This document shows, piece after piece, positions 8,781 to 63,080 of a stretch of DNA of 64,000 nt; the stretch's first letter is position 1, and every line of letters begins with the position of its first letter. The stretch is from Chaetoderma sp. LZ-2023a. Lineage: Eukaryota; Mollusca; Caudofoveata; Chaetodermatida; Chaetodermatidae. The translations under genes and the position numbers were made by a program. The notes beneath the pieces are model-generated. The model saw only the letters and a list, made by a program, of their open reading frames with translations, was not told the DNA's origin and did no database searches. The DNA is taken from the NCBI GenBank assembly GCA_034401795.1, contig CM067359.1, positions 141,229,278 to 141,293,277 on the forward strand, read 5' to 3'.

Positions 8781-8870
<90 letters not shown>

Positions 8871-10396: not shown

Positions 10397-10452
<56 letters not shown>

Positions 10453-17872: not shown

Positions 17873-17984
17873 ATATATAGAAATCTAAGACCATATCCAT
17901 GGCAACGACGCTCGGAATTTCAAGAACAATGTGCTAACAGTTCTGTTAGATGGCCTATAATGCTGGGAGATGACTCCATTAACC

Positions 17985-23884: not shown

Positions 23885-23897
23885 GAGAGAGAGAGAG

Positions 23898-23966
<69 letters not shown>

Positions 23967-23977
23967 GAGGGGAGAGG

Positions 23978-24023
<46 letters not shown>
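23885..24023. repeat. (GA)n microsatellite
   Basis: Mostly pure GA with a GGGGAGGGGA interruption near 23962-23982. Confidence 0.97.
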
Positions 24024-33399: not shown

Positions 33400-34740
33400 A
33401 AAGGCAAATTAAATATTGTTCTGGGTGTACAGTAAATCAAAATTTACTAAATGTTGTGCTAAAAGAATTCAGAATTTCCTTAATTATTATGGTAGGTGTT
33501 GTTCAGAATAGAGTACGTGTTGTGTGAATATGCAATTCAGTTTATTAAACGTTGTGTCAAACGTTGTTCAAGATCGTTTTTAATGTTGTAATAAAAGTGT
33601 TTCAAAAGTTATTAAATATTATGCAAAAATTGTATTTAAAAATCTATGACATATTGTAATATTTACAGTTCAAAATCTTTTATTAATTAATGTTGTGTCA
33701 GTGGATATTCCCATATCTGTTAACTTTTGTGCTTCAAGTAGCAAAAATCAATGTTGTGTTAACTGTCTTGCCACTGCGGGTTACCAAACAATAATTTCAA
33801 TGAGCAAAACGTCTTGACTTGCTGAATATTTGAAAACAATTTGACTGAAAGTTGTTGATGGCTAAGCCACCAACAAATATATAACACAGATATAACACTT
33901 GGAATATGTCGTCTGCAAAAACTCAAGAGTCAGACGTATGTAAAGTCGGTGTAAAAATGTAGTGATATCGGTAGTGACATATTTGCTTATAGCTGTGCTA
34001 AATGCACTTCACAGGCTACGGTATTTAATATGGCTTTAAATATGGTTTTATAAGTGGCTCAAAATGTATTACATTTGCTAAGAGAGCTTGACGTCTTTTA
34101 AATGTTATATGAAGCATAGTTCAAATTGTATTAAATACGTGAAGAATTTTAACAAATTCTATGAAATCAATATCAATGTATTAAATATTGTTTCTGTATA
34201 TTTTTCAAACGTATTTATTGTTGTGCCAAAGGTGTCTAATTTATATTTAAAGGTTGTGTTAAATGTATTTGAAAATCTGTTAAATGTTGTTCTAGACGTA
34301 AGTAAAAAATATCAAATTCTGCGTTAAAAGTGGCACATAGTTTGTGCTAAGATCTCACAAGATCTATTGAGTGATACGCTCAATGGTTCTGAGAATTAAC
34401 CCTTTAGTCATCGAATTTATTCAAGAAAACTTCAATTTTCTCATGGAAAATGTCCTTTTGTAGACGAAGAGCTGTTTTTGAAAATTTACCACTGGAATGA
34501 CTGGCTCGGTTATCGAGCCACTCATTCCAGTGATAAATTTTCAAAAATAGTCTTCTTTTGGACATTTCTCAAGACCACAGCAGAAGCCGCTTTTGGCTGA
34601 TATGAGTATTAAAGGGTCAAGGAAATAATTTAAGTATTTGTTCAAGATTTATTAAATGGATTTAATATTCAAATTTCAAATTGTTTAAAATACATTAACT
34701 GTTATGATAGAAGTAGTTCTATATATTTACTCAATGCCAC
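33400..34740. repeat. Degenerate AT-rich minisatellite, period about 30 bp
   Basis: Recurrent ttaaatgttgtgntaaaagt and gttcaaaattnattaaa motifs at about 30-bp steps, highly diverged. It is interrupted by a hairpin scrap at about 33820-33890 (gactgaaagttgttgatgg / caccaac) and by the F2 element at 34396-34620. The open frame 34088-34327 is formed by this repeat. Confidence 0.65.
34396..34620. mobile_element. F2 fold-back MITE inserted in minisatellite
   Basis: TTAACCCTTTAGTCATCG at the left (TTAA 34396-34399), AAAGGGTCAA at the right. The palindrome is actggctcggttatcgagcc with inverted flanks. One arm is shortened (the aatggac section is lost on the right). Confidence 0.85.
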
Positions 34741-34809
34741 GCTAACAAGTACGATCTATTAGGTTGAGTTGTCATTTTCTCATAAATAGCATACACAGTA
34801 TCGGTACGG

Positions 34810-35620
34810 TTAAACAAAACTTTCCACTTATATCGATATTTAGACTTCGAGAAAGTATTCAACAATGTTGATAGGAATGCTCTCTGGACACTTCTAGCTA
34901 AAATCCCTGACTCGACCAGCTTATTTTGATACAGACGAGCTACAATCATTCTACATCCAGAGTCATCCACAATGGATGAATCCAATCGGCCAGTCAAGTA
35001 TATGACGTCATAGTTAATTATATCACAAGTAGGCTGATGTCTTAGTCAAAGTACATAATGAATAACGTATCTCGGTCCGTTAGGAACATTAACTAGACCG
35101 TGAGTTATACAAAGTGTATGTTTTTACTATTTAATAAACATTGTGTTGAATATTTTGCCATAAACAGCAACACCACCCAGTCAAGTTAGTTTCAAAAATA
35201 TTCAACAGGGTGTTCAAAATGGATTTCCGGGAAGTCAGTGTCCCAAGTATATAAATCGATTCCATCACGCCCAACGCATGGATCGACCTTAGCTAGAGAT
35301 GAGTGGGCAATAGCTCAAAGTGGATTGATACATTGATCCCTCTCAAAAGCCTTTGATGCTATGACGAGATTGGAGCAATAGCGTAATTTGTAACGTTTCT
35401 TATTTCTACTCGACATTGATTGGATCATGAGAATATTTGTAGAATGTCCGCATCCAATGGACACTCTTCACTCAAGAAAACGATCTGGACTTCGCAGATG
35501 ACGTCACCGGCCTGCCACAAAAACGGCAGCACATATAGACCAATGCATCAGTAGCACAGAGGATTGGGCTCAAAATAACTATGGGCAAACCCACATCCCA
35601 GACAAGGCTACAACATAAAA
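34810..35620 (+). pseudogene. LINE reverse-transcriptase remnant, interrupted by F1
   Basis: Broken RT domain of a non-LTR retrotransposon, + strand. Visible motifs in order: YLDFEKVFNNVDRNALWTLL at 34837-34896 (first catalytic Asp region); after a frameshift, LIQTSYN..TSRVIHNG at 34926-34976; then an F1 MITE (about 34977-35335). It resumes with FLFLLDIDWIMR at 35397-35432, and after another frameshift IQWTLFTQENDLDFADDV at 35452-35505, with the catalytic FADD box at 35491-35502. A TAG stop at 35536 precedes QRIGLKITMGKPT (35557-35595). The next part, APINLDEDDLHT (about 35624-35659, frame shifted by one), grades directly into the 32-bp satellite. The order and spacing match CR1/RTE-type RTs. 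Clearly non-functional. Confidence 0.85.
34977..35335 (-). mobile_element. F1 MITE inserted in RT remnant
   Basis: Starts atgaatccaatcggccagtc, then gtatatgacgtcatagtt, atttaataaacattgtgttg, a hairpin with most of the left stem deleted (tgccataaacagcaacacc, agtttcaaaaatattcaaca), then cttagctagagatgag and aatagctcaaagtggat. It separates RT motifs RVIHNG and FLFLLDIDWIM. Confidence 0.78.
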
Positions 35621-37680
35621 GAGGCCCCTATAAATCTAGATGAAGATGATCTTCACACAATATTAGCCTAGATGAAGAGGGGCTTCGGGCAGCACTAAGC
35701 TAGATGAAGAGAAGCTCCAGGCTGCACAAAGCTAGATGAAGATGGGTTTCAGGCCACATTGAACTAGCTCAAGAGTATACTAGGCTGCAAACTGATAGAT
35801 GAGGAGGAGCTTTAGGCCCCATTAAGATATATTAAGAGGAGATTCTGGTCGCATTAAGCTATATGAAATTTCGCTTCTGGTTGCATTAAGGAGATTCGGG
35901 CCTCATTAATCCAGATGAGGAGGAGCTTCAGGCCTCATTAATCTAGATCAAGTTTAGCTTCAGGCCGCATTAAGCTAGATGAAGAGGAGCGTCATGTCCC
36001 ATTAAGCTAGATAAAGATGAGATGAGCTTCTGGTTGCATTACGCTAGATGAAGAGGAGCTGCAGGTCGCATTAAGCTATATCAAGGTTTGCTTCAGGTCA
36101 CATTAATCTAGATGAAGAGGAGTGTCAGGTCACATTAAGCTAGATAAAGAGGGGCTTAGGTCGCATTAAGATAGATGAAGAGGAGCTGCAGGTCGCATTA
36201 GGCTAGATCAAACTTAGTTTCAGCTCGCATTAAGCTAGATGAAGAGGAACTTCAGGCCAGATTAAGCTAGATAAAGAGGAGCGTCAGGCCACATTAAGCC
36301 AGATGACCAGGAGCTTCAGCCCACATTAAGCTAGATGAATAGGAGCTTCAGCCCACATTAAGCTAAATGAAGAGGAGCATCAAGTCGCATTAAGCTAGAT
36401 AAAGAGGAGCTTCTGGTCGCATTGAGATAGATGAAGAGGAGCTGCAGGTCACATTAAGCTAGATCAAACTTAGTTTCAGCTCGCATCAAGCTAGATGAAG
36501 AGGAACTTCAGGCCCCATTAATCTAGATAAAGAGGAGCTTCAGACCACTTTAAGCTAGATAAAGAGTCCTGCTTCCGGCCGCATCAAGCCAGATGAAAAG
36601 GAGCTTCAGCCCACATTAAGATAGATGAAGAGGAGCGTCAGGTTGCATTAATCTAGATAAAGGGGAGCTTCTGGTCGCATTAAGATAGATGAAGAGGAGC
36701 TGCAGGTCGCATTAAGCTAGATCAAACTTAGTTTCAGGTCGCATTAAGCTAGATGAAGAGGAGCATCAACTCGCATTCAGCCAGATAATGTCCTGCTTCA
36801 GGCCGCATTAAGCTAGATGAACCGGAGCATCAGACCACATTAAGCTAGATGAAGAGCAGCGTCAGGTCGCATTAAGCTAGATAAAGAGGAGCTTCTGGTC
36901 GCATTCAGACAGATGAAGAGGCGCATCAGGTCCCATTAATCTAGTCGAAGAGAAGCTGCAGGCCCCATTAAGCTAGATGAAGAGGAGCTTCAGACCGCAT
37001 TAAGCGAGATGAACAGGAGCTTCATCCCACATTAAGCTAGATGAATAGGAGCTTCATCCCGCATTATGCTAGATCAAGAGGAGCATCAGGTCGCATTAAG
37101 CTAGATGAAGAGGAGTGTCAGGTCGCATTAAGCTGGATAAAGATGAGATGAGCTTCTGGTTGCATTAAGCTAGATGAAGAGGAGCTGCAGGTCGCATTAA
37201 GCTATATCAAGTTTTGATTCAGGTCGCATTAAGCTAGATGAAGATGAGCTTCAGGTCGCATTAAGCTAGATAAAGAGGGGCTTCTGGTCGCATTAAGATA
37301 GATGAAGAGGAGCTGCAGGTCGCATTAGGCTAGATCAAACTTAGTTTCAGCTCGCATTAAGCTTGATGAAGAGGAGTGTCAGGTCGCATCAAGCTAGGTA
37401 AAGAGTCCTGCTTCAGGCCACATTAAGCTAGATGATCAGGAGCTTCAGCCCACATCAAGCTAGATGAAGAGGAGCATCAGGTCGCATTAAGCTAGATTAA
37501 GAGGAGCTTCTGGTCGCATTAAGATAGATGAAGAGGAGCTGCAGGTCGCATTAAGCTAATTCAAACTTAGTTTCAGCTCGCATCAAGCTAGATGAAGAGG
37601 CGCGTCAGGTCACATTAAGCTAGGTAAAGAGTCCTGCTTCAGGCCGCATTAAGCTAGATGAACAGGAGCTTCAGCCCACA

Positions 37681-40600
37681 TTAAGCTAGATGAAGAGGAG
37701 CATCAGGTCGCCTTAAGCTAGATAAAGAGGAGCTCAGGTCGCATTAAGATTGATGAAGAGGCGCATCAGGTCCCATTAATCTAGTCGAAGAGAAGTTGCA
37801 GGCCCCATTAAGCTAGATGAAGGAGGGTCAGTTCGCATTAAGATAGATGAAGAGGAGCGTCAGGTCGCATTAAGACTGATGAAGAGGAGCTGCAGGTCGC
37901 ATTAGGCTAGATCAAACTTAGTTTCAGCTCGCGTTAAGCTAGATGAAGAGGAACTTCAGGCCACATTAAGCTAGATAAAGAGAAGCACCAGGCCGCATTA
38001 AGCTAGATGAACAGGAGCTTCAGCCCACAGTAAGCTAGATGAAGAGGAGCGTCAGGTCGCATTAAGCTAGATAAAGAGGCACTTCTGGTCGCATTAAGAT
38101 AGATGAAGAGGAGTTTCAGGTCGCATTAAGCTTGATCAGGTTTTGCTTCAGGTCACATTAAGCTAGATGAAGGGGAGCTTCAGACCGCATTAAGCGAGAT
38201 AAAGAGGAGCTTCATGCCAAATTAAGCTAGATGAATAGGAGCTTCAGCCCGCATTAAGCTAGATCAAGAGGAGCATTAGGTCGCATTAAGCTAGATAAAG
38301 AGGAGCTTCTGGTCGCATTAAGATAGATGAAGAGGAGCTGCAGGTCGCATTAAGCTAGATCAAACTTAGCTTCAGCTCGCATTAAGCTACATGAAGAGGA
38401 GCGTCAGGTCGCATTCAGCTAGATAAAGTCCTGCTTCAGGCCGCATTAAGCTAGATGAACCGGAGCTTCAGCCCACATTAAGCTAGATGAAGAGCAGCGT
38501 CAGGTCGCATTAAGCTAGATAAAGAGGAGCTTCTGGTCGCATTCAGACAGATGAAGAGGCGCATCAGGTCCCATTAATCTAGTCGAAGAGAAGCTGCAGG
38601 CCCCATTAAGCTAGATGAAGAGGAGGGTCAGGTCGCATTAAGCTAGATGAAGAGGAGCGTCAGGTCGCATTAAGTTAGATAAAGACGGGCCTCTGGTCGC
38701 ATTAAGCAAGATAAAGAGGAGCGTCAAGCCGCATTAAGCTAGATGAACAGGAGCTTCAGCACACATTAAGCTAGATAAAGAGGAGCGTCATGCCACATTA
38801 AGCTAGATGAACATGAGCTTCATCCCACATTAAGCTAGATGAATAGGAGCTTCAGCCCGCAATAAGCTAGATGAAGAGGAGCATCAGGTCGCATTAAGCT
38901 AGATAAAGAGGAGCTTCTGGTCGCATTAAGATAGATGAAGAGGAGCTGCAGGTCGCATTAAGCTAGATTATACTTAGTTTCAGCTCGCATTAAGCTAGAT
39001 GAAGAGGAGCGTCAGGTCGCATTAAGCTAGATGAAGAGCAGCATCAGGTCGCATTAAGCTAGATACAAAGGAGCTTCTGGTCGCATTAAGATAGATGAAG
39101 AGGAGCTGCAGGTCACATTAAGCTAGATCAACTTTTGCTTGAGGTCACATTAAGCTAGATGAAGTGGAGCTTCAGAACGCATTAAGCGAGATGAACAGGA
39201 GCTTCATCCCACATTAAGCTAGATGAATATGAGCTTCATCCCGCATTATGCTAGATCAAGAGGAGCATCAGGTCGCATTAAGCTAGATAGATGAGCTTCT
39301 GGTCGCATTAAGCTAGATGAAGAGGAGCATCAGGTCGCCTTAAGCTAGATAAAGAGGATCTCAGGTCGCATTAAGATTGATGAAGAGGCGCATCAGGTCC
39401 CATTAATCTAGTCGAAGAGAAGTTGCAGGCCCCATTAAGCTAGATGAAGGAGGGTCAGTTCGCATTAAGATAGATGAAGAGGAGCGTCAGGTCGCATTAA
39501 GACTGATGAAGAGGAGCTGCAGGTCGCATTAGGCTAGATCAAACTTAGTTTCAGCTCGCGTTAAGCTAGATGAAGAGGAACTTCAGGCCACATTAAGCTA
39601 GATAAAGAGGAGCACCAGGCCGCATTAAGCTAGATGAACAGGAGCTTCAGCCCACAGTAAGCTAGATGAAGAGGAGCGTCAGGTCGCATTAAGCTAGATA
39701 AAGAGGCACTTCTGGTCGCATTAAGATAGATGAAGAGGAGTTTCAGGTCGCATTAAGCTTGATCAGGTTTTGCTTCAGGTCACATTAAGCTAGATGAAGG
39801 GGAGCTTCAGACCGCATTAAGCGAGATAAAGAGGAGCTTCATGCCAAATTAAGCTAGATGAATAGGAGCTTCAGCCCGCATTAAGCTAGATCAAGAGGAG
39901 CATTAGGTCGCATTAAGCTAGATAAAGAGGAGCTTCTGGTCGCATTAAGATAGATGAAGAGGAGCTGCAGGTCGCATTAAGCTAGATCAAACTTAGCTTC
40001 AGCTCGCATTAAGCTAGATGAAGAGGAGCGTCAGGTCGCATTCAGCTAGATAAAGTCCTGCTTCAGGCCGCATTAAGCTAGATGAACCGGAGCTTCAGCC
40101 CACATTAAGCTAGATGAAGAGCAGCGTCAGGTCGCATTAAGCTAGATAAAGAGGAGCTTCTGGTCGCATTCAGACAGATGAAGAGGCGCATCAGGTCCCA
40201 TTAATCTAGTCGAAGAGAAGCTGCAGGCCCCATTAAGCTAGATGAAGAGGAGGGTCAGGTCGCATTAAGCTAGATGAAGAGGAGCGTCAGGTCCCATTAA
40301 GTTAGATAAAGACGGGCCTCTGGTCGCATTAAGCAAGATAAAGAGGAGCGTCAAGCCGCATTAAGCTAGATGAACAGGAGCTTCAGCACACATTAAGCTA
40401 GATAAAGAGTAGCGTCATGCCACATTAAGCTAGATGAACATGAGCTTCATCCCACATTAAGCTAGATGAATAGGAGCTTCAGCCCGCAATAAGCTAGATG
40501 AAGAGGAGCATCAGGTCGCATTAAGCTAGATAAAGAGGAGCTTCTGGTCGCATTAAGATAGATGAAGAGGAGCTGCAGGTCGCATTAAGCTAGATTATAC

Positions 40601-40934
40601 TTAGTTTCAGCTCGCATTAAGCTAGATGAAGAGGAGCGTCAGGTCGCATTAAGCTAGATGAAGAGCAGCATCAGGTCGCATTAAGCTAGATACAAAGGAG
40701 CTTCTGGTCGCATTAAGATAGATGAAGAGGAGCTGCAGGTCACATTAAGCTAGATCAACTTTTGCTTGAGGTCACATTAAGCTAGATGAAGTGGAGCTTC
40801 AGAACGCATTAAGCGAGATGAACAGGAGCTTCATCCCACATTAAGCTAGATGAATAGGAGCTTCATCCCGCATTATGCTAGATCAAGAGGAGCATCAGGT
40901 CGCATTAAGCTAGATAGATGAGCTTCTGGTCGCA
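37681..40934. repeat. Tandem pair of 1,627-bp higher-order units
   Basis: 37681-39307 and 39308-40934 align with an offset of 1,627 bp. Landmarks such as ttaagcaagataaagagg (38703 and 40330) and the gtcgccttaagc variant (37708 and 39335) coincide. Differences are scattered single bases. Confidence 0.9.
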
Positions 40935-43900
40935 TTAAGATAGATGAAGAGGAGCTGCAGGTCGCATTAAGTTAGATCAAACTTAATTTCAGCTCGCATT
41001 AAGCTAGATGAAGAGGAGTGTCAGGTCGCATTCAGCTAGATAAAGTCCTGCTTCAGGCCGCATTAAGCTAGATGAACCGGAGCTTCAGCCCACATTAAGC
41101 TAGATGAAGAGCAGCGTCAGGTCGCATTAAGCTAGATAAAGAGGAGCTTCTGGTCGCATTCAGACAGACGAAGAGGCGCATCAGGTCCCATTAATCTAGT
41201 CGAAGAGAAGCTGCAGGCCCCATTAAGCTAGATGAAGAGGAGGGTCAGGTCGCATTAAGCTAGATAAAGAGGAGCGTCAAGCCGCATTAAGCTAGATGAA
41301 CAGGAGCTTCAGCACACATTAAGCTAGATAAAGAGGAGCGTCATGCCACATTAAGCTAGATGAACAGGAGCTTCATCCCACATTAAGCTAGATGAATAGG
41401 AGCTTCAGCCCACAATAAGCTAGATGAAGAGGAGCATCAGGTCGCATTAAGCTAGATAAAGAGGAGCTTCTGGTCGCATTAAGATAGATGAAGAGGAGCT
41501 GCAGGTCGCATTAAGCTAGATTATACTTAGTTTCAGCCCGCATTAAGCTAGATGAAGAGGATCGTCAGGTCGTATTAAGCTAGATGAACAGGAGCTTCAG
41601 CTCACATTAAGCTAGATGAAAAGAAGCGTCAGATCACATTAAGCTAGATAAAAAGGAGCTTCTGGTCGCATTAAGATAGATGAAGAGGAGTTGCAGGTCA
41701 CATTAAGCTAGATGAAGAGCAGCGTCAGGTCGCATTAAGCTAGATAAAAAGGAGCTTCTGGTCGCATTAAGATAGATGAAGAGGAGCTGCAGGTCACATT
41801 AAGCTAGATCAACTTTTGCTTGAGGTCACATTAAGCTAGATGAAGAGGAGCTTCAGAACGCATTAAGCTAGATGAACAGGAGCTTCATCCCACATTAAGC
41901 TAGATGAATAGGAGCTTCATCCCGCATTATGCTAGATCAAGAGGAGCATCAGGTCGCATTAAGCTAGATAGAGGAGCTTCTAGTCGCATTAAGATAGATG
42001 AAGAGGAGCTGCAGGTCGCATTAAGTTAGATCAAACTTAATTTCAGCTCGCATTAAGCTAGATGAAGAGGAGTGTCAGGTCGCATTCAGCTAGATAAAGT
42101 CCTGCTTCAGGCCGCATTAAGCTAGATGAACCGGAGCTTCAGCCCACATTAAGCTAGATGAAGAGCAGCGTCAGGTCGCATTAAGCTAGATAAATAGGAG
42201 CTTCTGGTCGCATTCAGACAGATGAAGAGGCGCATCAGGTCCCATTAATCTAGTCGAAGAGAAGCTGCAGGCCCCATTAAGCTAGATGAAGAGGAGGGTC
42301 AGGTCGCATTAAGCTAGATGAAGAGGAGCGTCAGGTCGCATTAAGTTAGATAAAGATGGGCCTCTGGTCGCATTAAGCTAGATAAAGAGGAGCGTCAAGC
42401 CGCATTAAGCTAGATGAACAGGAGCTTCAGCACACATTAAGCTAGATAAAGAGGAGCGACATGCCACATTAAGCTAGATGAACAGGAGCTTCATCCCACA
42501 TTAAGCTAGATGAATAGGAGCTTCAGCCCGCAATAAGCTAGATGAAGAGGAGCATCAGGTCGCATTAAGCTAGATAAAGAGGAGCTTCTGGTCGCATTAA
42601 GATAGATGAAGAGGAGCTGCAGGTCGCATTAAGCTAGATCAGGTTTTGCTTCAGGTCACATTAAGCTAGATGAAGTGGAGCTTCAGACCGCATTAAGCGA
42701 GATAAAGAGGAGCTTCATGCCACATTAAGCGAGATGAATAGGAGCTTCAGCCCGCATTAAGATAGATCAAGAGGAGCATTAGGTCGCATTAAGCTAGATA
42801 AAGAAGAGCTTCTGGTCGCATTAAGATAGATGAAGAGGAGCTGCAGGTCGCATTAAGCTAGATCAAACTTAGCTTCAGCTCGCATTAAGCTAGATGAAGA
42901 GGAGCGTCAGGTCGCATTCAGCTAGATAAAGTCCTGCTTCAGGCCGCATTAAGCTAGATGAACCGGAGCTTCAGCCCACATTAAGCTAGATGAAGAGCAG
43001 CGTCAGGTCGCATTAAGCTAGATAAAGAGGAGCTTCTGGTCGCATTCAGGCAGATGAAGAGGCGCATCAGGTCCCATTAATCTAGGCGAAGAGAAGCTGC
43101 AGGCCCCATTAAGCTAGATGAAGAGGAGGGTCAGGTCGCATTAAGCTAGATGAAGAGGAGCGTCAGGTCGCATTAAGTTAGATAAAGACGGGCCTCTGGT
43201 CGCATTAAGCAAGATAAAGAGGAGCGTCAAGCCGCATTAAGCTAGATGAACAGGAGCTTCAGCACACATTAAGCTAGATAAAGAGGAGCGTCATGCCACA
43301 TTAAGCTAGATGAACATGAGCTTTATCCCACATTAAGCTAGATGAATAGGAGCTTCAGCCCGCAATAAGCTAGATGAAGAGGAGCATCAGGTCGCATTAA
43401 GCTAGATAAAGAGGAGCTTCTGGTCGCATTAAGATAGATGAAGAGGAGCTGCAGGTCGCATTAAGCTAGATTATACTTAGTTTCAGCTCGCATTAAGCTA
43501 GATGAAGAGGAGCGTCAGGTCGTATTAAGCTAGATGAACAGGAGCTTTAGCTCACATTAAACTAGATGAAAAGAAGCGTCAGATCACATTAAGCTAGATA
43601 AAAAGGAGCTTCTGGTCGCATTAAGATAGATGAAGAGGAGCTGCAGGTCACATTAAGCTAGATGAAGAGCAGCGTCAGGTCGCATTAAGCTAGATACAAA
43701 GGAGCTTCTGGTCGCATTAAGATAGATGAAGAGGAGCTGCAGGTCACATTAAGCTAGATCAACATTTGCTTGAGGTCACATTAAGCTAGATGAAGTGGAG
43801 CTTCAGAACGCATTAAGCGAGATGAACAGGAGCTTCATCCCACATTAAGCTAGATGAATAGGAGCTTCATCCCGCATTATGCTAGATCAAGAGGAGCATC

Positions 43901-46900
43901 AGGTCGCATTAAGCTAGATAGATGAGCTTCTGGTCGCATTAAGATAGATGAAGAGGAGCTGCAGGTCGCATTAAGTTAGATCAAACTTAATTTCAGCTCG
44001 CATTAAGCTAGATGAAGAGGAGTGTCAGGTCGCATTCAGCTAGATAAAGTCCTGCTTCAGGCCGCATTAAGCTAGATGAACCGGAGCTTCAGCCCACATT
44101 AAGCTAGATGAAGAGCAGCGTCAGGTCGCATTAAGCTAGATAAAGAGGAGCTTCTGGTCGCATTCAGACAGATGAAGAGGCGCATCAGGTCCCATTAATC
44201 CTGTCGAAGAGAAGCTTCAGGCCCCATTAAGCTAGATGAAGAGGAGGGTCAGGTCGCATTAAGCTAGATAAAGAGGAGCGTCAAGCCGCATTAAGCTAGA
44301 TGAACAGGAGCTTCAGCACACATTAAGCTAGATAAAGAGGAGCGTCATGCCACATTAAGCTAGATGAACAGGAGCTTCATCCCACATTAAGCTAGATGAA
44401 TAGGAGCTTCAGCCCGCAATAAGCTAGATGAAGAGGAGCATCAGGTCGCATTAAGCTAGATAAAGAGGAGCTTCTGGTCGCATTAAGAATGAAGAGGAGC
44501 TGCAGGTCGCATTAAGCTAGATTATACTTAGTTTCAGCCCGCATTAAGCTAGATGAAGAGGAGCGTCAGGTCGTATTAAGCTAGATGAACAGGAGCTTCA
44601 GCTCACATTAAGCTAGATGAAAAGAAGCGTCAGATCACATTAAGCTAGATAAAAAGGAGCTTCTGGTCGCATTAAGATAGATGAAGAGGAGCTGCAGGTC
44701 ACATTAAGCTAGATGAAGAGCAGCGTCAGGTCGCATTAAGCTAGATAAAAAGGAGCTTCTGGTCGCATTAAGATAGATGAAGAGGAGCTGCAGGTCACAT
44801 TAAGCTATATCAACTTTTGCTTGAGGTCACATTAAGCTAGATGAAGAGGAGCTTCAGAACGCATTAAGCTAGATGAACAGGAGCTTCATCCCACATTAAG
44901 CTAGATGAATAGGAGCTTCATCCCGCATTATGCTAGATCAAGAGGAGCATCAGGTCGCATTAAGCTAGATAGAGGAGCTTCTGGTCGCATTAAGATAGAT
45001 GAAGAGGAGCTGCAGGTCGCATTAAGTTAGATCAAACTTAATTTCAGCTCGCATTAAGCTAGATGAAGAGGAGTGTCAGGTCGCATTCAGCTAGATAAAG
45101 TCCTGCTTCAGGCCGCATTAAGCTAGATGAACCGGAGCTTCAGCCCACATTAAGCTAGATGAAGAGCAGCGTCAGGTCGCATTAAGCTAGATAAATAGGA
45201 GCTTCTGGTCGCATTCAGACAGATGAAGAGGCGCATCAGGTCCCATTAATCTAGTCGAAGAGAAGCTGCAGGCCCCATTAAGCTAGATGAAGAGGAGGGT
45301 CAGGTCGCATTAAGCTAGATGAAGAGGAGCGTCAGGTCGCATTAAGTTAGATAAAGATGGGCCTCTGGTCGCATTAAGCTAGATAAAGAGGAGCGTCAAG
45401 CCGCATTAAGCTAGATGAACAGGAGCTTCAGCACACATTAAGCTAGATAAAGAGGAGCGTCATGCCACATTAAGCTAGATGAACAGGAGCTTCATCCCAC
45501 ATTAAGCTAGATGAATAGGAGCTTCAGCCCGCAATAAGCTAGATGAAGAGGAGCATCAGGTCGCATTAAGCTAGATAAAGAGGAGCTTCTGGTCGCATTA
45601 AGATAGATGAAGAGGAGCTGCATGTCGCATTAAGCTAGATTATACTTAGTTTCAGCCCGCATTAAGCTAGATGAAGAGGAGCGTCAGGTCGTATTAAGCT
45701 AGATGAACAGGAGCTTCAGCTCACATTAAGCTAGATGAAAAGAAGCGTCAGATCACATTAAGCTAGATAAAAAGGAGCTTCTGGTCGCATTAAGATAGAT
45801 GAAGAGGAGCTGCAGGTCACATTAAGCTAGATGAAGAGCAGCGTCAGGTCGCATTAAGCTAGATAAAAAGGAGCTTCTGGTCGCATTAAGATAGATGAAG
45901 AGGAGCTGCAGGTCACATTAAGCTAGATCAACTTTTGCTTGAGGTCACATTAAGCTAGATGAAGAGGAGCTTCAGAACGCATTAAGCGAGATGAACAGGA
46001 GCTTCATCCCACATTAAGCTAGATGAATAGGAGCTTCATCCCGCATTATGCTAGATCAAGAGGAGCATCAGGTCGCATTAAGCTAGATAGAGGAGCTTCT
46101 GGTCGCATTAAGATAGATGAAGAGGAGCTGCAGGTCGCATTAAGTTAGATCAAACTTAATTTCAGCTCGCATTAAGCTAGATGAAGAGGAGTGTCAGGTC
46201 GCATTCAGCTAGATAAAGTCCTGCTTCAGGCCGCATTAAGCTAGATGAACCGGAGCTTCAGCCCACATTAAGCTAGATGAAGAGCAGCGTCAGGTCGCAT
46301 TAAGCTAGATAAAGAGGAGCTTCTGGTCGCATTCAGACAGATGAAGAGGCGCATCAGGTCCCATTAATCTAGTCGAAGAGAAGCTGCAGGCCCCATTAAG
46401 CTAGATGAAGAGGAGGGTCAGGTCGCATTAAGCTAGATGAAGAGGAGCGTCAGGTCGCATTAAGTTAGATAAAGATGGGCCTCTGGTCGCATTAAGCTAG
46501 ATAAAGAGGAGCGTCAAGCCGCATTAAGCTAGATGAACAGGAGCTTCAGCACACATTAAGCTAGATAAAGAGGAGCGTCATGCCACATTAAGCTAGATGA
46601 ACAGGAGCTTCATCCCACATTAAGCTAGATGAATAGGAGCTTCAGCCCGCAATAAGCTAGATGAAGAGGAGCATCAGGTCGCATTAAGCTAGATAAAGAG
46701 GAGCTTCTGGTCGCATTAAGATAGATGAAGAGGAGCTGCAAGTCGCATTAAGCTAGATTATACTTAGTTTCAGCTCGCATTAAGCTAGATGAAGAGGAGC
46801 GTCAGGTCGTATTAAGCTAGATGAACAGGAGCTTCAGCTCACATTAAGCTAGATGAAAAGAAGCATCAGATCACATTAAGCTAGATAAAAAGGAGCTTCT

Positions 46901-47083
46901 GGTCGCATTAAGATAGATGAATAGGAGCTGCAGGTCACATTAAGCTAGATCAACTTTTGCTTGAGGTCACATTAAGCTAGATGAAGAGGAGCTTCAGACC
47001 GCATTAAGCTAGATGAATAGGAGCTTCATCCCACATTATGCTAGATCAAGAAGAGCATCAGGTCGCATTAATCTAGATAGAGG
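40921..47083. repeat. Higher-order blocks of about 1.05 kb and 3.0 kb
   Basis: The landmark agcttct(g/a)gtcgcattaaga, followed by the ttaagttagatcaaacttaa variant, recurs at 40921, 41974, 43924, 44976, 46094 and 47084. Spacings are 1,053, 1,950, 1,052, 1,118 and 990 bp. 40921-43923 repeats at 43924 with an offset of 3,003 bp. The 1,950-bp block carries an insertion resembling 38130-38700. Confidence 0.88.
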
Positions 47084-47129
47084 AGCTTCTGGTCGCATTA
47101 AGATAGATGAAGAGGAGCTGCAGGTCGCA

Positions 47130-50100
47130 TTAAGTTAGATCAAACTTAATTTCAGCTCGCATTAAGCTAGATGAAGAGGAGTGTCAGGTCGCATTAAGCT
47201 GGATAAAGATGAGATGAGCTTCTGGTTGCATTAAGCTAGATGAAGAGGAGCTGCAGGTCGCATTAAGCTATATCAAGTTTTGATTCAGGTCGCATTAAGC
47301 TAGATGAAGATGAGCTTCAGGTCGCATTAAGCTAGATAAAGAGGGGCTTCTGGTCGCATTAAGATAGATGAAGAGGAGCTGCAGGTCGCATTAGGCTAGA
47401 TCAAACTTAGTTTCAGATCGCATTAAGCTTGATGAAGAGTGTCAGGTCGCATCAAGCTAGGTAAAGAGTCCTGCTTCAGGCCACATTAAGCTAGATGATC
47501 AGGAGCTTCAGCCCACATCAAGCTAGATGAAGAGGAGCATCAGGTCGCATTAAGCTAGATAAAGAGGGGCTTCTTGTCGCATTAAGATAGATGAAGAGGA
47601 GCTGCAGGTCGCATTAAGCTAATTCAAACTTAGTTTCAGCTCGCATCAAGCTAGATGAAGAGGCGCGTCAGGTCACATTAAGCTAGGTAAAGAGTCCTGC
47701 TTCAGGCCGCATTAAGCTAGATGAACAGGAGCTTCAGCCCACATTAAGCTAGATGAAGAGGAGCGTCAGGTCGCCTTAAGCTAGATAAAGAGGAGCTCTG
47801 GTCGCATTAAGATAGACGAAGAGGCGCATCAGGTCCCATTAATCTAGTCGAAGAGAAGTTGCAGGCCCCATTAAGCTAGATGAAGGAGGGTCAGGTCGCA
47901 TTAAGATAGATGAAGGGGAGCATCAGGTCGCATTAAGACAGATGAAGAGGAGCTGCAGGTCGCATTAGGCTAGATCAAACTTAGTTTCAGCTCGCATTAA
48001 GCTAGATGAAGAGGAACTTCAGGCCACATTAAGCTAGATAAAGAGGAGCGTCAGGCCGCATTAAGCTAGATGAACAGGAGCTTCAGCCCACAGTAAGCTA
48101 GATGAAGAGGAGTGTCAAGTCGCATTAAGCTAGAGAAAGAGGCACATCTGGTCGCATTAAGATAGATGAAGAGGAGCTGCAGGTCGCATTAAGCTAGATC
48201 AGGTTTTGCTTCAGGTCACATTAAGCTAGATGAAGAGGAGCTTCAGACCGCATTAAGCTAGACGAATAGGAGCTTCAGCCCGCATTAAGCTAGATCAAGA
48301 GGAGCATTAGGTCGCATTAAGCTAGATAAAGAGGAGCTTCTGGTCGCATTAAGATAGATGAAGAGGAGCTGCAGGTCGCATTAAGCTAGATCAAACTTAG
48401 CTTCAGCTCGCATTAAGCTAGATGAAGAGGAGCGTCAGGTCGCATTCAGCTAGATAAAGTCCTGCTTCAGGCCGCATTAAGCTAGATGAACAGGAGCTTC
48501 AGCCCACATTAAGCTAGATGAAGAGGAGTGTCAGGTCGCATTAAGCTAGATAAAGAGGAGCTTCTGGTCGCATTAAGATAGATGAAGAGGCGCATCAGGT
48601 CCCATTAATCTAGTCGAAGAGAAGCTGCAGGCCCCATTAAGCTAGATGAAGAGGAGGGTCAGGACGCATTAAGCTAGATGAAGAGTAGTTTCTGGTCGCA
48701 TTAAGTTATATGAAGAGGAGCTGCAGGTCGCATTAAGCTAGATCCAGTTTAGCTTCAGGCCCCATTAAGTTAGATGATGTGGAGCGTCAAGTCGCATTAC
48801 GTTAGATGAAGGGGAGCTTCTGGTCGCATTAAGCTGGAAGAAGAGGTCCATGATCGCATTAAGCTAGATGAAGCGGAGCTGCAGGTCGCATTAAGCTAGA
48901 TAAAGAGGGGCTTCTGGTCGCATTTAGATGAAGAGAATCTGCAGGTCGCATTAGGCTAGATCAAACTTAGTTTCATCTCGCACTAAGCTAGATGAAGAAG
49001 AACGTCAGGCCGCATTAAGTTAGATAAAGAGGAGCTTCAGGCTGCATTAAGCTAGATGAACAGGAGCTTCAGCCCGCATTAAGCTAGATGAATAGGCTTC
49101 AGACTGCTTTAAGCTAGATAAAGAGTCCTGCTTCAGGCCACATTAAGCTAGATGAACAGGAGCTTCAGCCCGCATTAAGCTAGATGAAGAGGAGCGTCAC
49201 GTCGCATTAAGCTAGATAAAGAGGAGCTTCTGGTCGCATTAAGATAGATGAAGAGGAGCTGCAGGTCACATTTAGCTAGATCAAACTTAGTTTCAGCTCG
49301 CATTAAGCTAGATGAAGAGGAGCGTCAGGTCGCATTAAGCAAGATAAAGAGGAGCGTCAAGCCGCATTAAGCTAGATGAACCGGAGCTTCAGCCCACATT
49401 AAGCTAGATGAAGAGCAGCGTCAGGTCGCATTAAGCTAGATAAAGAGGAGCTTCTGGTCGCATTCAAACAGATGAAGAGGCGCATCAGGTCCCATTAATC
49501 TAGTCGAAGAGAAGCTGCAGGCCCCATTAAGCTAGATGAAGAGGAGGGTCAGGTCGCATTAAGCTAGATAAAGAGGAGCGTCAAGCCGCATTAAGCTAGA
49601 TGAACAGGAGCTTCAGCGCACATTAAGCTAGATAAAGAGGAGCGTCATGCCACATTAAGCTAGATGAACAGGAGCTTCATCCCACATTAAGCTAGATGAA
49701 TAGGAGCTTCAGCCCGCAATAAGCTAGATGAAGAGGAGCATCAGGTCGCATTAAGCTAGATAAAGAGGAGCTTCTGGTCGCATTAAGATAGATGAAGAGG
49801 AGCTGCAGGTCGCATTAAGCTAGATTATACTTAGTTTCAGCCCGCATTAAGCTAGAAGAGGAGCGTCAGGTCGTATTAAGCTAGATGAACAGGAGCTTCA
49901 GCTCACATTAAGCTAGATGAAAAGAAGCGTCAGATCACATTAAGCTAGATAAAAAGGAGCTTCTGGTCGCATTAAGATAGATGAAGAGGAGCTGCAGGTC
50001 ACATTAAGCTAGATGAAGAGCAGCGTCAGGTCGCATTAAGCTAGATAAAAAGGAGCTTCTGGTCGCATTAAGATAGATGAAGAGGAGCTGCAGGTCACAT

Positions 50101-53100
50101 TAAGCTATATCAACTTTTGCTTGAGGTCACATTAAGCTAGATGAAGAGGAGCTTCAGAACGCATTAAGCTAGATGAACAGGAGCTTCATCCCACATTAAG
50201 CTAGATGAATAGGAGCTTCATCCCGCATTATGCTAGATCAAGAGGAGCATCAGGTCGCATTAAGCTAGATAGAGGAGCTTCTGGTCGCATTAAGATAGAT
50301 GAAGAGGAGCTGCAGGTCGCATTAAGTTAGATCAAACTTAATTTCAGCTCGCATTAAGCTAGATGAAGAGGAGTGTCAGGTCGCATTCAGCTAGATAAAG
50401 TCCTGCTTCAGGCCGCATTAAGCTATATGAACCGGAGCTTCAGCCCACATTAAGCTAGATGAAGAGCAGCGTCAGGTCGCATTAAGCTAGATAAATAGGA
50501 GCTTCTGGTCGCATTCAGACAGATGAAGAGGCGCATCAGGTCCAATTAATCTAGTCGAAGAGAAGCTGCAGGCCCCATTAAGCTAGATGAAGAGGAGGGT
50601 CAGGTCGCATTAAGCTAGATGAAGAGGAGCGTCAGGTCGCATTAAGTTAGATAAAGATGGGCCTCTGGTCGCATTAAGGTAGATAAAGAGGAGCGTCAAG
50701 CCGCATTAAGCTAGATGAACAGGAGCTTCAGCACACATTAAGCTAGATAAAGAGGAGCGTCATGCCACATTAAGCTAGATGAACAGGAGCTTCATCCCAC
50801 ATTAAGCTAGATGAATAGGAGCTTCAGCCCGCAATAAGCTAGATGAAGAGGAGCATCAGGTCGCATTAAGCTAGATAAAGAGGAGCTTCTGGTCGCATTA
50901 AGATAGATGAAGAGGAGCTGCAGGTCGCATTAAGTTAGATCAAACTTAATTTCAGCTCGCATTAAGCTAGATGAAGAGGAGTGTCAGGTCGCATTAAGCT
51001 GGATAAAGATGAGATGAGCTTCTGGTTGCATTAAGCTAGATGAAGAGGAGCTGCAGGTCGCATTAAGCTATATCAAGTTTTGATTCAGGTCGCATTAAGC
51101 TAGATGAAGATGAGCTTCAGGTCGCATTAAGCTAGATAAAGAGGGGCTTCTAGTCGCATTAAGATAGATGAAGAGGAGCTGCAGGTCGCATTAGGCTAGA
51201 TCAAACTTAGTTTCAGCTCGCATTAAGCTTGATGAAGAGTGTCAGGTCGCATCAAGCTAGGTAAAGAGTCCTGCTTCAGGCCACATTAAGCTAGATGATC
51301 AGGAGCTTCAGCCCACATCAAGCTAGATGAAGAGCATCAGGTCGCATTAAGCTAGATAAAGAGGGGCTTCTTGTCGCATTAAGATAGATGAAGAGGAGCT
51401 GCAGGTCGCATTAAGCTAATTCAAACTTAGTTTCAGCTCGCATCAAGCTAGATGAAGAGGCGCGTCAGGTCACATTAAGCTAGGTAAAGAGTCCTGCTTC
51501 AGGCCGCATTAAGCTAGATGAACAGGAGCTTCAGCCCACATTAAGCTAGATGAAGAGGAGCGTCAGGTCGCCTTAAGCTAGATAAAGAGGAGCTCTGGTC
51601 GCATTAAGATAGACGAAGAGGCGCATCAGGTCCCATTAATCTAGTCGAAGAGAAGTTGCAGGCCCCATTAAGCTAGATGAAGGAGGGTCAGGTCGCATTA
51701 AGATAGATGAAGGGGAGCGTCAGGTCGCATTAAGACAGATGAAGAGGAGCTGCAGGTCGCATTAGGCTAGATCAAACTTAGTTTCAGCTCGCATTAAGCT
51801 AGATGAAGAGGAACTTCAGGCCACATTAAGCTAGATAAAGAGGAGCGTCAGGCCGCATTAAGCTAGATGAACAGGAGCTTCAGCCCACAGTAAGCTAGAT
51901 GAAGAGGAGCGTCAGGTCGCATTAAGCTAGAGAAAGAGGCACATCTGGTCGCATTAAGATAGATGAAGAGGAGCTGCAGGTCGCATTAAGCTAGATCAGG
52001 TTTTGCTTCAGGTCACATTAAGCTAGATGAAGAGGAGCTTCAGACCGCATTAAGCTAGACGAATAGGAGCTTCAGCCCGCATTAAGCTAGATCAAGAGGA
52101 GCATTAGGTCGCATTAAGCTAGATAAAGAGGAGCTTCTGGTCGCATTAAGATAGATGAAGAGGAGCTGCAGGTCGCATTAAGCTAGATCAAACTTAGCTT
52201 CAGCTCGCATTAAGCTAGATGAAGAGGAGCGTCAGGTCGCATTCAGCTAGATAAAGTCCTGCTTCAGGCCGCATTAAGCTAGATGAACAGGAGCTTCAGC
52301 CCACATTAAGCTAGATGAAGAGGAGTGTCAGGTCGCATTAAGCTAGATAAAGAGGAGCTTCTGGTCGCATTAAGATAGATGAAGAGGCGCATCAGGTCCC
52401 ATTAATCTAGTCGAAGAGAAGCTGCAGGCCCCATTAAGCTAGATGAAGAGGAGGGTCAGGACGCATTAAGCTAGATGAAGAGTAGTTTCTGGTCGCATTA
52501 AGTTATATGAAGAGGAGCTGCAGGTCGCATTAAGCTAGATCCAGTTTAGCTTCAGGCCCCATTAAGTTAGATGATGTGGAGCGTCAAGTCGCATTACGTT
52601 AGATGAAGGGGAGCTTCTGGTCGCATTAAGCTGGAAGAAGAGCTCCATGATCGCATTAAGCTAGATGAAGCGGAGCTGCAGGTCGCATTAAGCTAGATAA
52701 AGAGGGGCTTCTGGTCGCATTTAGATGAAGAGAATCTGCAGGTCGCATTAGGCTAGATCAAACTTAGTTTTATCTCGCACTAAGCGAGATGAAGAAGAAC
52801 GTCAGGCCGCATTAAGTTAGATAAAGAGGAGCTTCAGGCTGCATTAAGCTAGATGAACAGGAGCTTCAGCCCGCATTAAGCTAGATGAATAGGCTTCAGA
52901 CTGCTTTAAGCTAGATAAAGAGTCCTGCTTCAGGCCACATTAAGCTAGATGAACAGGAGCTTCAGCCCGCATTAAGCTAGATGAAGAGGAGCGTCACGTC
53001 GCATTAAGCTAGATAAAGAGGAGCTTCTGGTCGCATTAAGATAGATGAAGAGGAGCTGCAGGTCACATTTAGCCAGATCAAACTTAGTTTCAGCTCGCAT

Positions 53101-53116
53101 TAAGCTAGATGAAGAG
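47130..53116. repeat. 3.8 kb duplicated block with 5.3 kb-offset insert
   Basis: 47130-49318 recurs at 50930-53116 with an offset of 3,800 falling to 3,797 bp (ggataaagatgagatgagct at 47201 and 51001). The segment between them (about 49380-50930) instead matches 44080-45630 at an offset of exactly 5,300 bp. The first part also resembles 37120-38100. Confidence 0.88.
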
Positions 53117-53506
53117 GCACCTCAAGCTGCACTAATCCAGATGAAGAATAGGTTTGAACCGCATTAAGCTAGATAAAGATGAGCTTCAGACTGCATTGAG
53201 CTAGATGAACAGGAGTTTCAGTCTGCATTAAGCTAGATGAAGGAGGTTCAGCCCGCATTAAGCTAGATGAAGAGCAGCTTCAGCCTCATTAAGTTAAATG
53301 AAGAGCATCTTCAGCCAGCATTAAGCTAGATGAAGAGCAGCTTCAGCCCACAGTAAGCTAGATGACATGAAGCTTCAATGTCACATTAAGCTGAATAAAG
53401 ATAACTTTTAAGCTGCATTAAGGTCGATGAAGACGAGCTTCATGCCCCATTAAGCGAAATGAAGAGGCGCATCAGGTCCCATTAAGCTAGCCGAAGAGAA
53501 GCTTCA

Positions 53507-53521
53507 GGCCCCCCCCCCCCC
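53507..53521. repeat. Poly-C run within satellite
   Basis: A run of about 15 C interrupts a monomer. A run of about 13 G (near 53932-53944) occurs 0.4 kb further on. Both are in the diverged right-hand part of the array. Confidence 0.9.
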
Positions 53522-56162
53522 ATCAAGCTAGATGAAGAAGCACATCAGGTCCCATTAAGCTAGCCGAAGAGAAGCTTCAGGCCCCATTAAGCTAGATGAA
53601 GAGGAGGGTCAGGTCAGATTAAGCTAAATGAAGAGTAGCTTCTGGTCGCATTAAGTTATATGAAGATGAGCTGCAGGTCGCATTAAGCTAGATCAAGCTT
53701 AGCTTCAGGTCGCATTAGGTTAGATGAAGTGGAGTGTCTGGTCGCATTAGGTTAGATGAAGAGGAGCTTCTGGTCGCATTAAGCTGGATGCAGGAGAGCT
53801 CCTGGTCGCATTAAGCTAGACGAAGAGGAGATGCAGGTTACATTAAGCTAGATCAAGCTTAGCTTCCGGTCGCATTAAGCTAGATCAAGTCGCATTAAGC
53901 TAGATGAAGAGGAACGTCATGTCACATTAGTGGGGGGGGGGGGGCTGGATAAAGATGAGCTTCTGGTTGCATTAAGCTAGATGAAGTGGAGCTGCAGGTC
54001 GCATTAAGCTAGATCAAGCTTAGTTTCAGCTCCCATTAAGCTAGATGAAGAGGCACCTCAGGCTGCACTAATCCAGATGAAGAATAGGTTTAAACCACAT
54101 TAAGCTAGATGAAGAGGAACTTCAGGCCGCATTAAGCTAGATGAACAGGAGCTTCAGCCCGCATTAATCTAGATGAAGAGAAGCTTCATGCCAAATTAAG
54201 CTGGATAAAGAGAATGTTTAGGCTGCATTAAGCTAAATGAAGAGGCGCATCAGGTCCCATTAAGCTAGCTGAAGAGAAGCTGCAGGCCCCATTAAGCTAG
54301 CTGAAGAGGAGGATCCGGTCCTAAGCTAGATGAAGAATAGTTTCTGGTCGTATTAAGTTATATGAAGAGGAACTGCAGGTCGCATTAAGCTAGATCCAGT
54401 TTAGCTTCAGGCCCCATTAAGCTAGATGAAGTGGAGCTTCTGGTTTCATTAAGCTGGAAGAAGTAGAGCTTCCTGGTCGCATTAAGCTAGATGAAGTGGA
54501 GCTGCAGGTCGCATTAAGCTAGATAGAGGGGCCTCTGGTCGCATTAAGATAGATGAAGAGGAGCTGCAGGTCGCATTAGGCTAGATGAAGAGGAGCATCA
54601 GGTCGCATTAGAAGCTAGATCAAACTTAGTTTCAGCTTGCATTAAGCTAGATGAAGAGGCACCTCAGGCTGCACTAATCCAGATGAAGAATAGGTTTGAA
54701 CCGCATTAAGCTAGATAAAGATTAGCTTCAGACCGCATTAAGCTAGAAGAACAGGAGCTTCAGTCTGCAATAAGCTAGATGAAGAGGAGGTTCAGCCCGC
54801 ATTAAGCTAGATGAAGAGGAGCTTCAGCCAGCATTAAGCAAGATGACGTGAAGCTTCAATGTCACATTAAGCTGGATAAAGAGAAAGTTTAGGTTGCATT
54901 AAACTCAAAGACGAGCTTCATGCCCCATTAAGCTAAATGAAGAGGCGCATCAGGTCCCAATAAGCTAGCCGAAGAGAAGCTTCAGGCCCCCCATTATGCT
55001 AGATGAAGAGGATGGTCAGGTCGGATTAAGATAGATGAAGAGTAGCTTCTGGTCGCATTAAGTTATATGAAGAGGAGCTGCAGGTCGCATTAGGCTAGAT
55101 CAAGTTTAGCTTCAGGCCCCATTAAATTAGATGAAGTGGAGTGTCAGGTCGCATTAAGTTAGATGAAGAGGAGCTTCTGGTTGCATTAAGCTGGATGCAG
55201 AAGAGCTCCTGGTCACATTAAGCTAGATGAAGAGGAGCTGCTGGTCGCTAGATCAAGCTTAGTTTCAGCTCGCATTAAGCTAGATGAAGAGGCACCTCAG
55301 GCTTCACTAATCCAGATGATGAATAGGTTTAAACTGCATTAAGCTAGATGAAGAGGAACTTCAGGCCGCATTAGGCTAGATAAAGAGGAATTTCAGATCA
55401 CATTATGCTAAATAAAGAGGAGCTTCAGGCCGCATTAGGCTAGATGAACAGGACCTTCAGTCCGCATTAAGCTAGATGAAGAGCAGCTTCAGCCCACATT
55501 AAGCTAGATGAAGAGCAGCTTCATGCTAAATTAAGCTGGATAAAGAGAATGTTTAGGCTGCATTAAGCTCGATGAAGTCGAGCTTCATGCCCCATTAAGC
55601 TTAATGAAGAGGCGCAGCAGGTCCCATTAAGCTAGCCGAAGAGAAGCTGCAGGCCCCATTAAGCTAGATGAAGAGGAGGAGCAGGTCGCATTAAGCTAGA
55701 TGAAGAGTAGTTTCTGGTCGCATTAAGTTATATGAAGAGGAGCTGCGGGTCGCACTAAGCTGGAAGAAGAAGAGCTCCCTGGTCACATTAAGCTAGATAA
55801 AGAGGAGCGTCAGGTCGCATTAAGATAGATGAAGAGGCGCATCAGGTCCCATTAATCTAGTCGAAGAGAAGCTGCAGGCCCCATTAAGCTAGATGAAGAG
55901 GAGGGTCAGGACGCATTAAGCTAGATGAAGAGTAGTTTCTGGTCGCATTAAGCTAGATGAAGAGGAGCTGCGGGCCGCATTAAGCTAGATCAAGTTTAGC
56001 TTCAGTCCCCATTAAGTTAGATGAAGTGGAGCATCAAGTCGCATTAAGTTAGATGAAGGGGAGCTTCTGGTCACATTAAGCTGGAAGAAGAAGAGCTCCC
56101 TGGTCACATTAAGCTAGATAAAGAGGAGCTTCAGACCATATTAAGCTGGACAAAGAGGAGCT

Positions 56163-56256
56163 ATAAATATTTTTAATTTAATATGGCTGGAAGCCGTTGC
56201 TGCCTAAGACAGCAGCAACAGCTTCCAGTGATATATTAGTTTCGAAATATTCAAAA
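56163..56256. mobile_element. Hairpin module abutting satellite end
   Basis: Directly after the last monomer (gaggagct) comes ataaatatttttaatttaat, then ggaagccgttgctgcc and agcagcaacagcttcc, then attagtttcgaaatattcaa. This is the F1/F3 hairpin with a diverged left arm. No F1 ends are recognisable around it. Confidence 0.8.
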
Positions 56257-56462
56257 TATTTCCAGTATTGTTGTGAAATTGAGATATGGGGAATTCACCT
56301 ATCAAAGGGTTAAACTAATATGACAGGAGTAAAAAAACAGAACTAAACTTGCGCCTATGGACAAGAGTAATCAGCTCGTGTTGGAGTCTATAAGCATCTG
56401 CCAACTGCTGGTGAGTTAACCATTTAATAGCTAAAGTTGGTCACGACAATCAACATATAGAG

Positions 56463-57055: not shown

Positions 57056-57159
57056 GGTTGCGCACCCAACAGCCAATGAAAATACTCCATTGAATATGGC
57101 ACGTCTGCTCATATCGAAAAATATGTAACGGGCTAGAAGGCTTGTTTATATGATAAATT

Positions 57160-57349
57160 TGCTTATTGAATATCCATTTTCAGGCCAAGAGAGACTATTT
57201 AAAAATAATTTTCACTGAAATGACTGACTCGGTTATCGATTCAGTTATTCCAATAATAAATTTCTTATTCTTCTCTTGGACTATAAATAGACATTGCCCA
57301 AGTCCACTACAGAGGTCGGTTTTGGCAAGATTCAACATGAAAGGGTTAA
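57160..57349. mobile_element. Degraded F2 fold-back MITE
   Basis: tccattttcaggccaagaga, gaaatgactgactcggttat, cgattcagttattcc, ttcttctcttggactataaa, cagaggtcggttttgg, then catgaaagggTTAA at 57346-57349. The left TTAA end is not clear. Confidence 0.75.
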
Positions 57350-60708: not shown

Positions 60709-60838
60709 ATACAATTTTAACCTCCAAAAGCACACAATTTTAACCTCTAAAAGTATACAATTTTAACCTCTAAAAGTATACAATTTTAACCTCTAAAAGT
60801 ATACAATTTTAACCTCTAAAAGTAAACAATTTTAACAC
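60709..60838. repeat. 23-bp tandem repeat, 5-6 units
   Basis: Unit acaattttaacctctaaaag plus tat. The first and last units are diverged, and the middle three are identical. Confidence 0.95.
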
Positions 60839-62650: not shown

Positions 62651-63080
62651 ATTCTAAATGGTTGAGCTATAGAGTAGGGTCAATTGCAGAAGACGTCTCC
62701 ATTAGTCTAACGGGTTGATCATTATTAAACTTCTGAACCTTAGTGCTTTTAGCCGGGTCAATGTACAAAGGTCGTTGTATAGCAGACAATCGGTTAGTTA
62801 TTACCCTGACAGATTAAAATTAACTAGTCGAACTTTGAAACAACTCTGACTATGTGTAACGATCGTCAGAGTTGTACAAAGTTCAGCGAATAAATTTACA
62901 ATCGTGTTAGGGAAATAACAACAACCTATTGCATTTTTAATGGGCCTCGAGCGGCTATAGGTTATAGGGCGAGGGGTCTTTCAGGTTGTTTTTTTCAATT
63001 AAAACAATACGAGTCATTTCACATTTCACAATTTTTTAATAAAATTAAGTTTCAATAACTCTATACAACTGATAAAATAT
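62651..63080. other. Non-coding, nothing recognised
   Basis: No gene or array identified. A local pair tcgtcagagttgtacaaag / ctttgaaacaactctgac near 62833-62882 could form a hairpin. Confidence 0.45.

Follow-up and report, generated by a model that had tools for sequence, protein, structure and literature searches.

It is a known principle that tandem repeats can originate from transposable elements, including LINEs, and how such a repeat came into being can rarely be seen, since an array writes over the sequence it came from. Tandem repeats derived from LINE ORF2 include PROsat of Phodopus roborovskii, Pvc 20 of Phoca vitulina (from L1 ORF2) and HinfI of chicken (from a partial CR1 ORF2) (PMC9659126, PMC6947457). 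Like the array described here, these are tandem repeats homologous to LINE coding sequence; they are listed as satellites, whereas ours occupies one locus, its unit measures 32 bp (about 11 codons), and its likely parent is still attached in register on one side. Minisatellites born from transposons are also known, namely Ms6-hm (mouse MaLR), Alu-derived minisatellites (human) and Gmr9-associated ones (soybean) (PMC6947457, PMC9659126), and these resemble the present array in being short-unit arrays of transposon origin. They are listed as descending from an LTR element, from Alu and from a Ty3/gypsy element, respectively, whereas the likely parent here is LINE reverse transcriptase (RT) coding DNA. 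In Lathyrus sativus, short arrays within retroelements expanded into satellites (PMC7004042); those are LTR retrotransposons carrying short arrays and dispersed genome-wide, whereas no second locus was found for the present array. No report of this array was found in the literature on transposon-derived repeats, in searches that were not aimed at the array itself.

In this paper we describe a 32-bp tandem array that abuts a LINE remnant and propose, with a probability of about 70%, that it grew at its present locus from a short RT coding stretch of this dead LINE copy. The principle that transposons seed tandem repeats is left unchanged by the array, which would add one case to it, with a LINE coding segment as the founder of a very short unit.

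A 32-bp array at a single locus

The window, that is, the whole stretch of 64,000 nucleotides analysed here, corresponds to C1:141229278-141293277 of a 2.44 Gb assembly of 2753 contigs, all of which were searched for the repeat. The array occupies positions 35636-56162 of the window on the plus strand, a span of 20.5 kb, and consists of approximately 640 units arranged head-to-tail. TRF reported a period of 32 with 634.2 copies at 35889-56162, together with shorter rows from 35668, and a wrap-around alignment gave 645 rows, the first and last of which are partial end pieces, with the monomer consensus CTAGATGAAGAGGAGCTTCAGGTCGCATTAAG. The initial annotation had described a 32-bp array of about 640 copies and 20.5 kb, and on this the two methods agree. 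Rows are on average 0.86 identical to the consensus and comprise 273 distinct sequences, and 88.8% of them are clean 32-mers. Unit 1 (35636-35667, plus strand) is 69% identical to the consensus.

Minisatellites have units of about 10-100 bp in kilobase arrays at one locus, and with its 32-bp unit, 20.5 kb length and single locus the array is one of them. It is not classical satellite DNA in the sense of an abundant family at many loci or in heterochromatic blocks, as there is no excess of the repeat outside the window. Nothing indicates a host function for the array. The CpG observed/expected ratio is 0.58 within the array (35636-56162) and 0.85 in the first 34.8 kb of the window, and the low value could perhaps be a sign of array methylation.

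Two patterns were used in the genome search. The strict one, the TRF 32-mer consensus (a rotation of CTAGATGAAGAGGAGCTTCAGGTCGCATTAAG) with up to 3 mismatches, gave 201 forward and 0 reverse matches in the genome and the same 201 and 0 in the window, so that all matches lie inside it. The looser one, with 17 fixed bases and one mismatch allowed, gave 483 forward and 3 reverse matches in the genome as against 478 and 0 in the window; the 8 matches outside are at chance level when judged by the reversed pattern used as control (7 + 4). The initial annotation had held that finding the same satellite elsewhere, lacking any LINE boundary and of older, unrelated origin, would refute its birth from the LINE; across the 2.44 Gb no excess of the repeat appeared outside the window. 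With no excess elsewhere, birth at the present locus is the simplest reading of these counts, the alternative being that the repeat was lost elsewhere.

Any two units are on average 0.769 identical, and distant units are no less similar (0.783 at lag 200) than adjacent ones (0.768 at lag 1). A higher-order repeat was considered and rejected, since the similarity of neighbouring units (0.768) does not exceed that of all pairs (0.769). Near-identity is instead found in blocks: 479 of the 645 rows belong to blocks, each 8 or more units long, that have a near-identical partner; stretches as long as 51 units are repeated almost without change, and four long block pairs are 99.35-99.77% identical. 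These blocks make up most of a core at 37101-53104, in which short runs of 1-6 rows are uncovered. The left edge (35622-37100; 47 rows) and the right edge (53105-56162; 97 rows, or 53,105-56,209 with the last row, which lies past the array end) show no such duplication among blocks of 8 units or more; core and edges are all on the plus strand. This arrangement fits old units born by slippage, followed by kilobase-scale exchange in the core. Edges that lack block duplicates and recent duplications on the kilobase scale are distinct phases, so the 640-fold amplification proposed in the initial annotation, although correct as a number of units, was probably not one event.

The LINE remnant and its junction with the array

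RT homology was searched with 120 of 5004 natural RT proteins gathered with a seed sequence; 118 of the 120 bear both PF00078 and PF20049. Tblastn of these proteins against the window gave 307 matches at E <=0.01 (best E 6e-10), of which 84 start within 34,500-35,000 and 223 within 35,000-35,500, with aligned pieces at 35340-35444 and 35452-35592. The LINE remnant on the plus strand is in two pieces. Piece 1 (34825-34957, start approximate), found by tblastn, carries LDFEK...ALWTLLAKI, with DFEK at 34843, and then RVIHNG in another frame. Piece 2 (35341-35621; tblastn E 6e-10) carries FLFLLDIDWIM, IQWTL..DLDFADD with FADD at 35491, and GLKITMGK with GLKIT at 35566, and is interrupted by frameshifts and stops. 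Between them, after RVIHNG, lies a common dispersed repeat of about 380 bp (34958-35340, unstranded), MITE-like in its many short inverted matches and matched many times by blastn in 220 kb sampled from this genome. This insertion was absent from the initial annotation, whose broken RT motifs are otherwise all present and in order and whose description of RT sequence running into the array without a gap also holds, the broken RT running from about 34.8 kb.

Membership in the PF00078+PF20049 LINE RT family is indicated by DFEK, FLFLL.IDWIM, DLDFADD and GLKI in that order, whereas FTYLGS and the part beyond it were not found for the window copy. When four RT pieces (three of them carrying an X in place of a stop) were scanned against Pfam, nothing was returned; the pieces are short and decayed. 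Judged by eye from TQ..DLDFADD, the window copy looks like a different subfamily from the same-genome copies compared below.

The remnant flanks the array on the side expected of a parent element, the left, and is in register with it. A FADD-to-FTYLGS segment could be obtained from 87 of the 120 RT proteins and is 69 residues long in 84 of these 87. In this family the P of the PI motif stands 20 codons (60 nt) past the G of GLKI; the window has these two codons at 35,566 (G) and 35,627 (P), a distance of 61 nt, or 20 codons and one base. The sequence at 35624-35659 is APINLDEDDLHT, and its 11 codons APINLDEDDLH (35624-35656, plus strand), which cover a partial unit 0 and most of unit 1 in frame, are colinear with the RT columns TPITLEGEPLE. 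The LINE and the array appear to overlap at these codons.

This match was scored against an RT profile of 62 non-redundant proteins and 323 columns, and it counts against the hypothesis of birth from the LINE that it was itself prompted by inspection of the data. The colinear column ranks 1 of 313 for APINLDEDDLH, and among all 1636 start positions in the 0.85 kb junction stretch, counting both strands, the peptide comes first with 7.4, the next one scoring -1.4. Across both strands of the sampled genome and of the window outside the array, 9 of 523,444 positions reach its score in place, as do 5 of 200,000 shuffles and 77 of 200,000 codon permutations. With six variants of the profile, 4-28 of the 523,444 positions are as good (8e-6 to 5e-5), and allowing nine start positions brings the rate of a junction match to 7e-5 to 5e-4. 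The initial annotation had recognised this as the place where RTs would be expected to carry such a peptide, and the colinear position bears it out. The value of 7.4 also exceeds those of five real LINE copies from the same genome at that place (6.4 to -14.4). The cumulative score reaches its top at the second L codon (35,653) and drops after it, where the next repeat copy starts; the residues N and H of unit 1 and its lead-in score -4 against the RT family. An early profile test with unit 1 and the consensus alone gave p 0.0007-0.004 and is superseded by the junction test.

The partial unit 0 (AGGCCCCTATAAAT, 35622-35635, plus strand) agrees with the final 13 monomer positions and can also be translated as the (E)APIN of RT. 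Anchored at their end and with one gap allowed, the 13 bases preceding unit 1 match the monomer tail at p 0.0006 over 13 columns, a value that was stressed after all four widths had been seen, the others being p 0.017 over 10 columns, 0.021 over 16 and 0.10 over 20. The match scores 3.2, far under the median of 20.2 for real units. Recognisable array sequence therefore seems to start at about 35622 and not at 35636. If these 13 bases before unit 1 are array-like, the RT-colinear stretch and the array overlap, and the two appear to share DNA at the junction.

The consensus monomer, scanned over 32 rotations, both strands and all columns, is not independent of unit 1, and the array units are not independent of one another. 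It reads IKLDEEELQ, as the initial annotation had noted, and the highest of the 20,224 cells places its 8-mer IKLDEEEL on the columns ITLEGEPL, which is the colinear place. When any place in the profile is allowed, 158 of 3000 shuffles score as high, and so do 147 of 3000 sequences shuffled by dinucleotide and 226 of 3000 32-mers drawn at random from the window. Since controls often reach it (about 5% of shuffles), the place and not the score carries this test: the best match falls in columns 164-169 for 16 of 3000 random window 32-mers and for 279 of 573 clean units. The comparison with shuffled 32-mers proposed in the initial annotation leaves the score weak; it is the position that is rare, among random window 32-mers. 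Homology of the monomer to the element is thus at the protein level and at a definite place, on statistical grounds in which the score of the consensus alone is weak.

DNA-level comparison and the origin of the array

A DNA search with the junction piece matched only itself, with a tool that skips common words. Relatives of the RT in the genome were represented by 131 scored matches from 47,245 candidates, of which the best five are 41-50% identical and all contain stops. These five LINE copies keep the segment, reading APVSMLGEVHEEV, EPVSVLAEVLRIV, TPG*MLGETLE, ETVPILGEALTKV and ESVEMLREADWEV, and the profile ranks the junction place 1, 1, 1, 1 and 9 for L032, L033, L034, L031 and L035, respectively. 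By these ranks they are homologous at the segment, yet they differ from LDEEEL, which none of them contains. An RT with LDEEEL at this place was not found among the 4 candidates scored in the protein search either, a number too small to be informative, and no usable copy of the window LINE family was present in the 220 kb genome sample. The other 126, lower-ranking RT matches in the genome (28-39% identical) include many with long open frames, so that other LINE families look younger than that of the window.

In gapped comparison with the five copies, the post-junction DNA of the window gave 24, 21, 19, 21 and 22 matches, where the background has a mean of 20, a 95th percentile of 23 and a 99th of 25; the consensus gave 21, 22, 20, 18 and 24, its background having a mean of 20, a 95th percentile of 23 and a 99th of 24. 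Two of these ten comparisons, which have low power with copies so diverged, lie above the 95th percentile of the background. With L035 left out, pre-junction DNA gave 37 and 39 matches for two of the four copies, above the 99th percentile of 36, and 29 and 34 for the others, below it. Past the junction and without gaps, the four copies (again leaving out L035) share 22-28 of 39 positions with one another and the window shares 13-14 of 39 with them in its best register. The LINE DNA before unit 1 is unlike the consensus monomer (877 of 2000 shuffles are as good). The alignment to a parent LINE called for in the initial annotation thus yielded five relatives that keep the segment and no close DNA copy, with DNA likeness mostly at background.

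Under the proposed origin, the parent would be an apparently 5'-truncated and long-dead LINE copy of the PF00078+PF20049 RT family. A stretch of about 11 RT codons just before FTYLGS, of the form (A)PI-x-L-D-[DE]-[DE]-[DE]-L-[HQ], would have been duplicated in tandem, probably by replication slippage, and loss of one base would have turned a 33-nt unit into one of 32 bp and scrambled the frame. The units may then have multiplied and diverged to about 77% pairwise identity, after which the core would have been enlarged as blocks of 8-51 units (up to 1.6 kb) were copied, either by unequal exchange or by segmental duplication, with diverged units left at the edges. The distal half of the LINE would have been lost by deletion or by original truncation, so that the right end now meets a MITE-like repeat. 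The initial annotation had already proposed birth from the LINE, and that proposal gains from the peptide in RT register, the columns chosen by the consensus and the single locus, and lacks DNA identity to a parent; its duplicated "32 bp of RT" persists as a short RT segment, which we would rather describe as 11 codons (33 nt) less one base. We consider it probable that an 11-codon piece of RT founded the 20 kb array at one site, that the founding unit still stands in place and in register with its parent, and that the path from coding segment through 33-nt and 32-bp units to kilobase-scale blocks can be read at one locus. With a one-locus array, a likely source still attached, old edges and a recent core, birth on the scale of slippage and growth on the scale of exchange can be distinguished.

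The array could also have arisen in situ from unrelated DNA beside a truncated LINE, the peptide match being a coincidence. Likeness between monomer and LINE at the DNA level is little or none, the copies from the same genome stay alike past the junction where the window departs from them, and the distal half of the LINE is undetected, as though the element had ended there; in addition, about 5% of shuffles reach the best profile score of the consensus when any place is allowed. All of this speaks for a coincidence. It would, however, have to account for a peptide at the junction that holds its RT place and register with a chance of 8e-6 to 5e-5, for a consensus whose best match falls on the same RT columns, and for array-like sequence that appears to begin within the RT-colinear stretch, and we regard it as unlikely. 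The in-register junction also tells against the idea that the array or its seed moved into the LINE from elsewhere by transposition, transduction or break-repair capture. Arrays are reported to travel within mobile elements (PMC7492417), and a MITE-like repeat does adjoin the right end of this one, but nowhere else in the 2.44 Gb genome is the array's repeat in excess, and a move into the LINE seems very improbable. The length of 20.5 kb might in part be an artefact of assembly, through collapse or duplication of blocks, as the core blocks are identical at a level (99.35-99.77%) where assemblers can err; given that the blocks are inexact and differ in length and lag, and that neither edge has block duplicates, we give this hardly any weight.

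The right flank and other repeats of the window

Growth from the LINE copy would leave the remainder of the element to be sought on the other side of the array, and none was found there: the C-terminal half of the RT after FTYLGS was undetected in the 17.9 kb to the right, including 10 kb beyond the window, with 97 C-terminal queries (best E 0.48). The right end of the array adjoins instead a palindromic, MITE-like dispersed repeat (56163-56310, right limit approximate, unstranded), matched about 50 times in the genome sample and the remaining window together. An FTY at 56294, a candidate for the LINE motif, was taken by eye as the end of this repeat. A full-RT match in L010 was likewise discarded as the distal half of the LINE, being another RT copy on the minus strand. 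In L010, an RT fragment of another family lies at 2214-2831 on the minus strand (E 6e-11 to P0104).

Elsewhere in the window, a weak cluster of RT matches lies at about 17600-17900 (74 of 672 matches at E <=10, none at E 0.01). Open frames at 9100-9818 (minus strand) and 63003-63594 (plus strand) resemble, by eye, C-terminal portions of proteins from other retroelements. Dispersed repeats that are very common and contain short inverted stretches are found at 34400-34620, 34958-35340, 56163-56310 and 57150-57330, each matched up to tens of times in the 220 kb sample plus the remaining window. Other tandem repeats are a 171-bp repeat at 15068-15715 (3.7 copies, 78% matches), TAG at 7526-7738 (71 copies, 95% matches) and a 23-bp repeat at 60709-60836 (5.6 copies, 95% matches), and long GA tracts occur at 8781-9009, 10288-10451 and 23885-24023.
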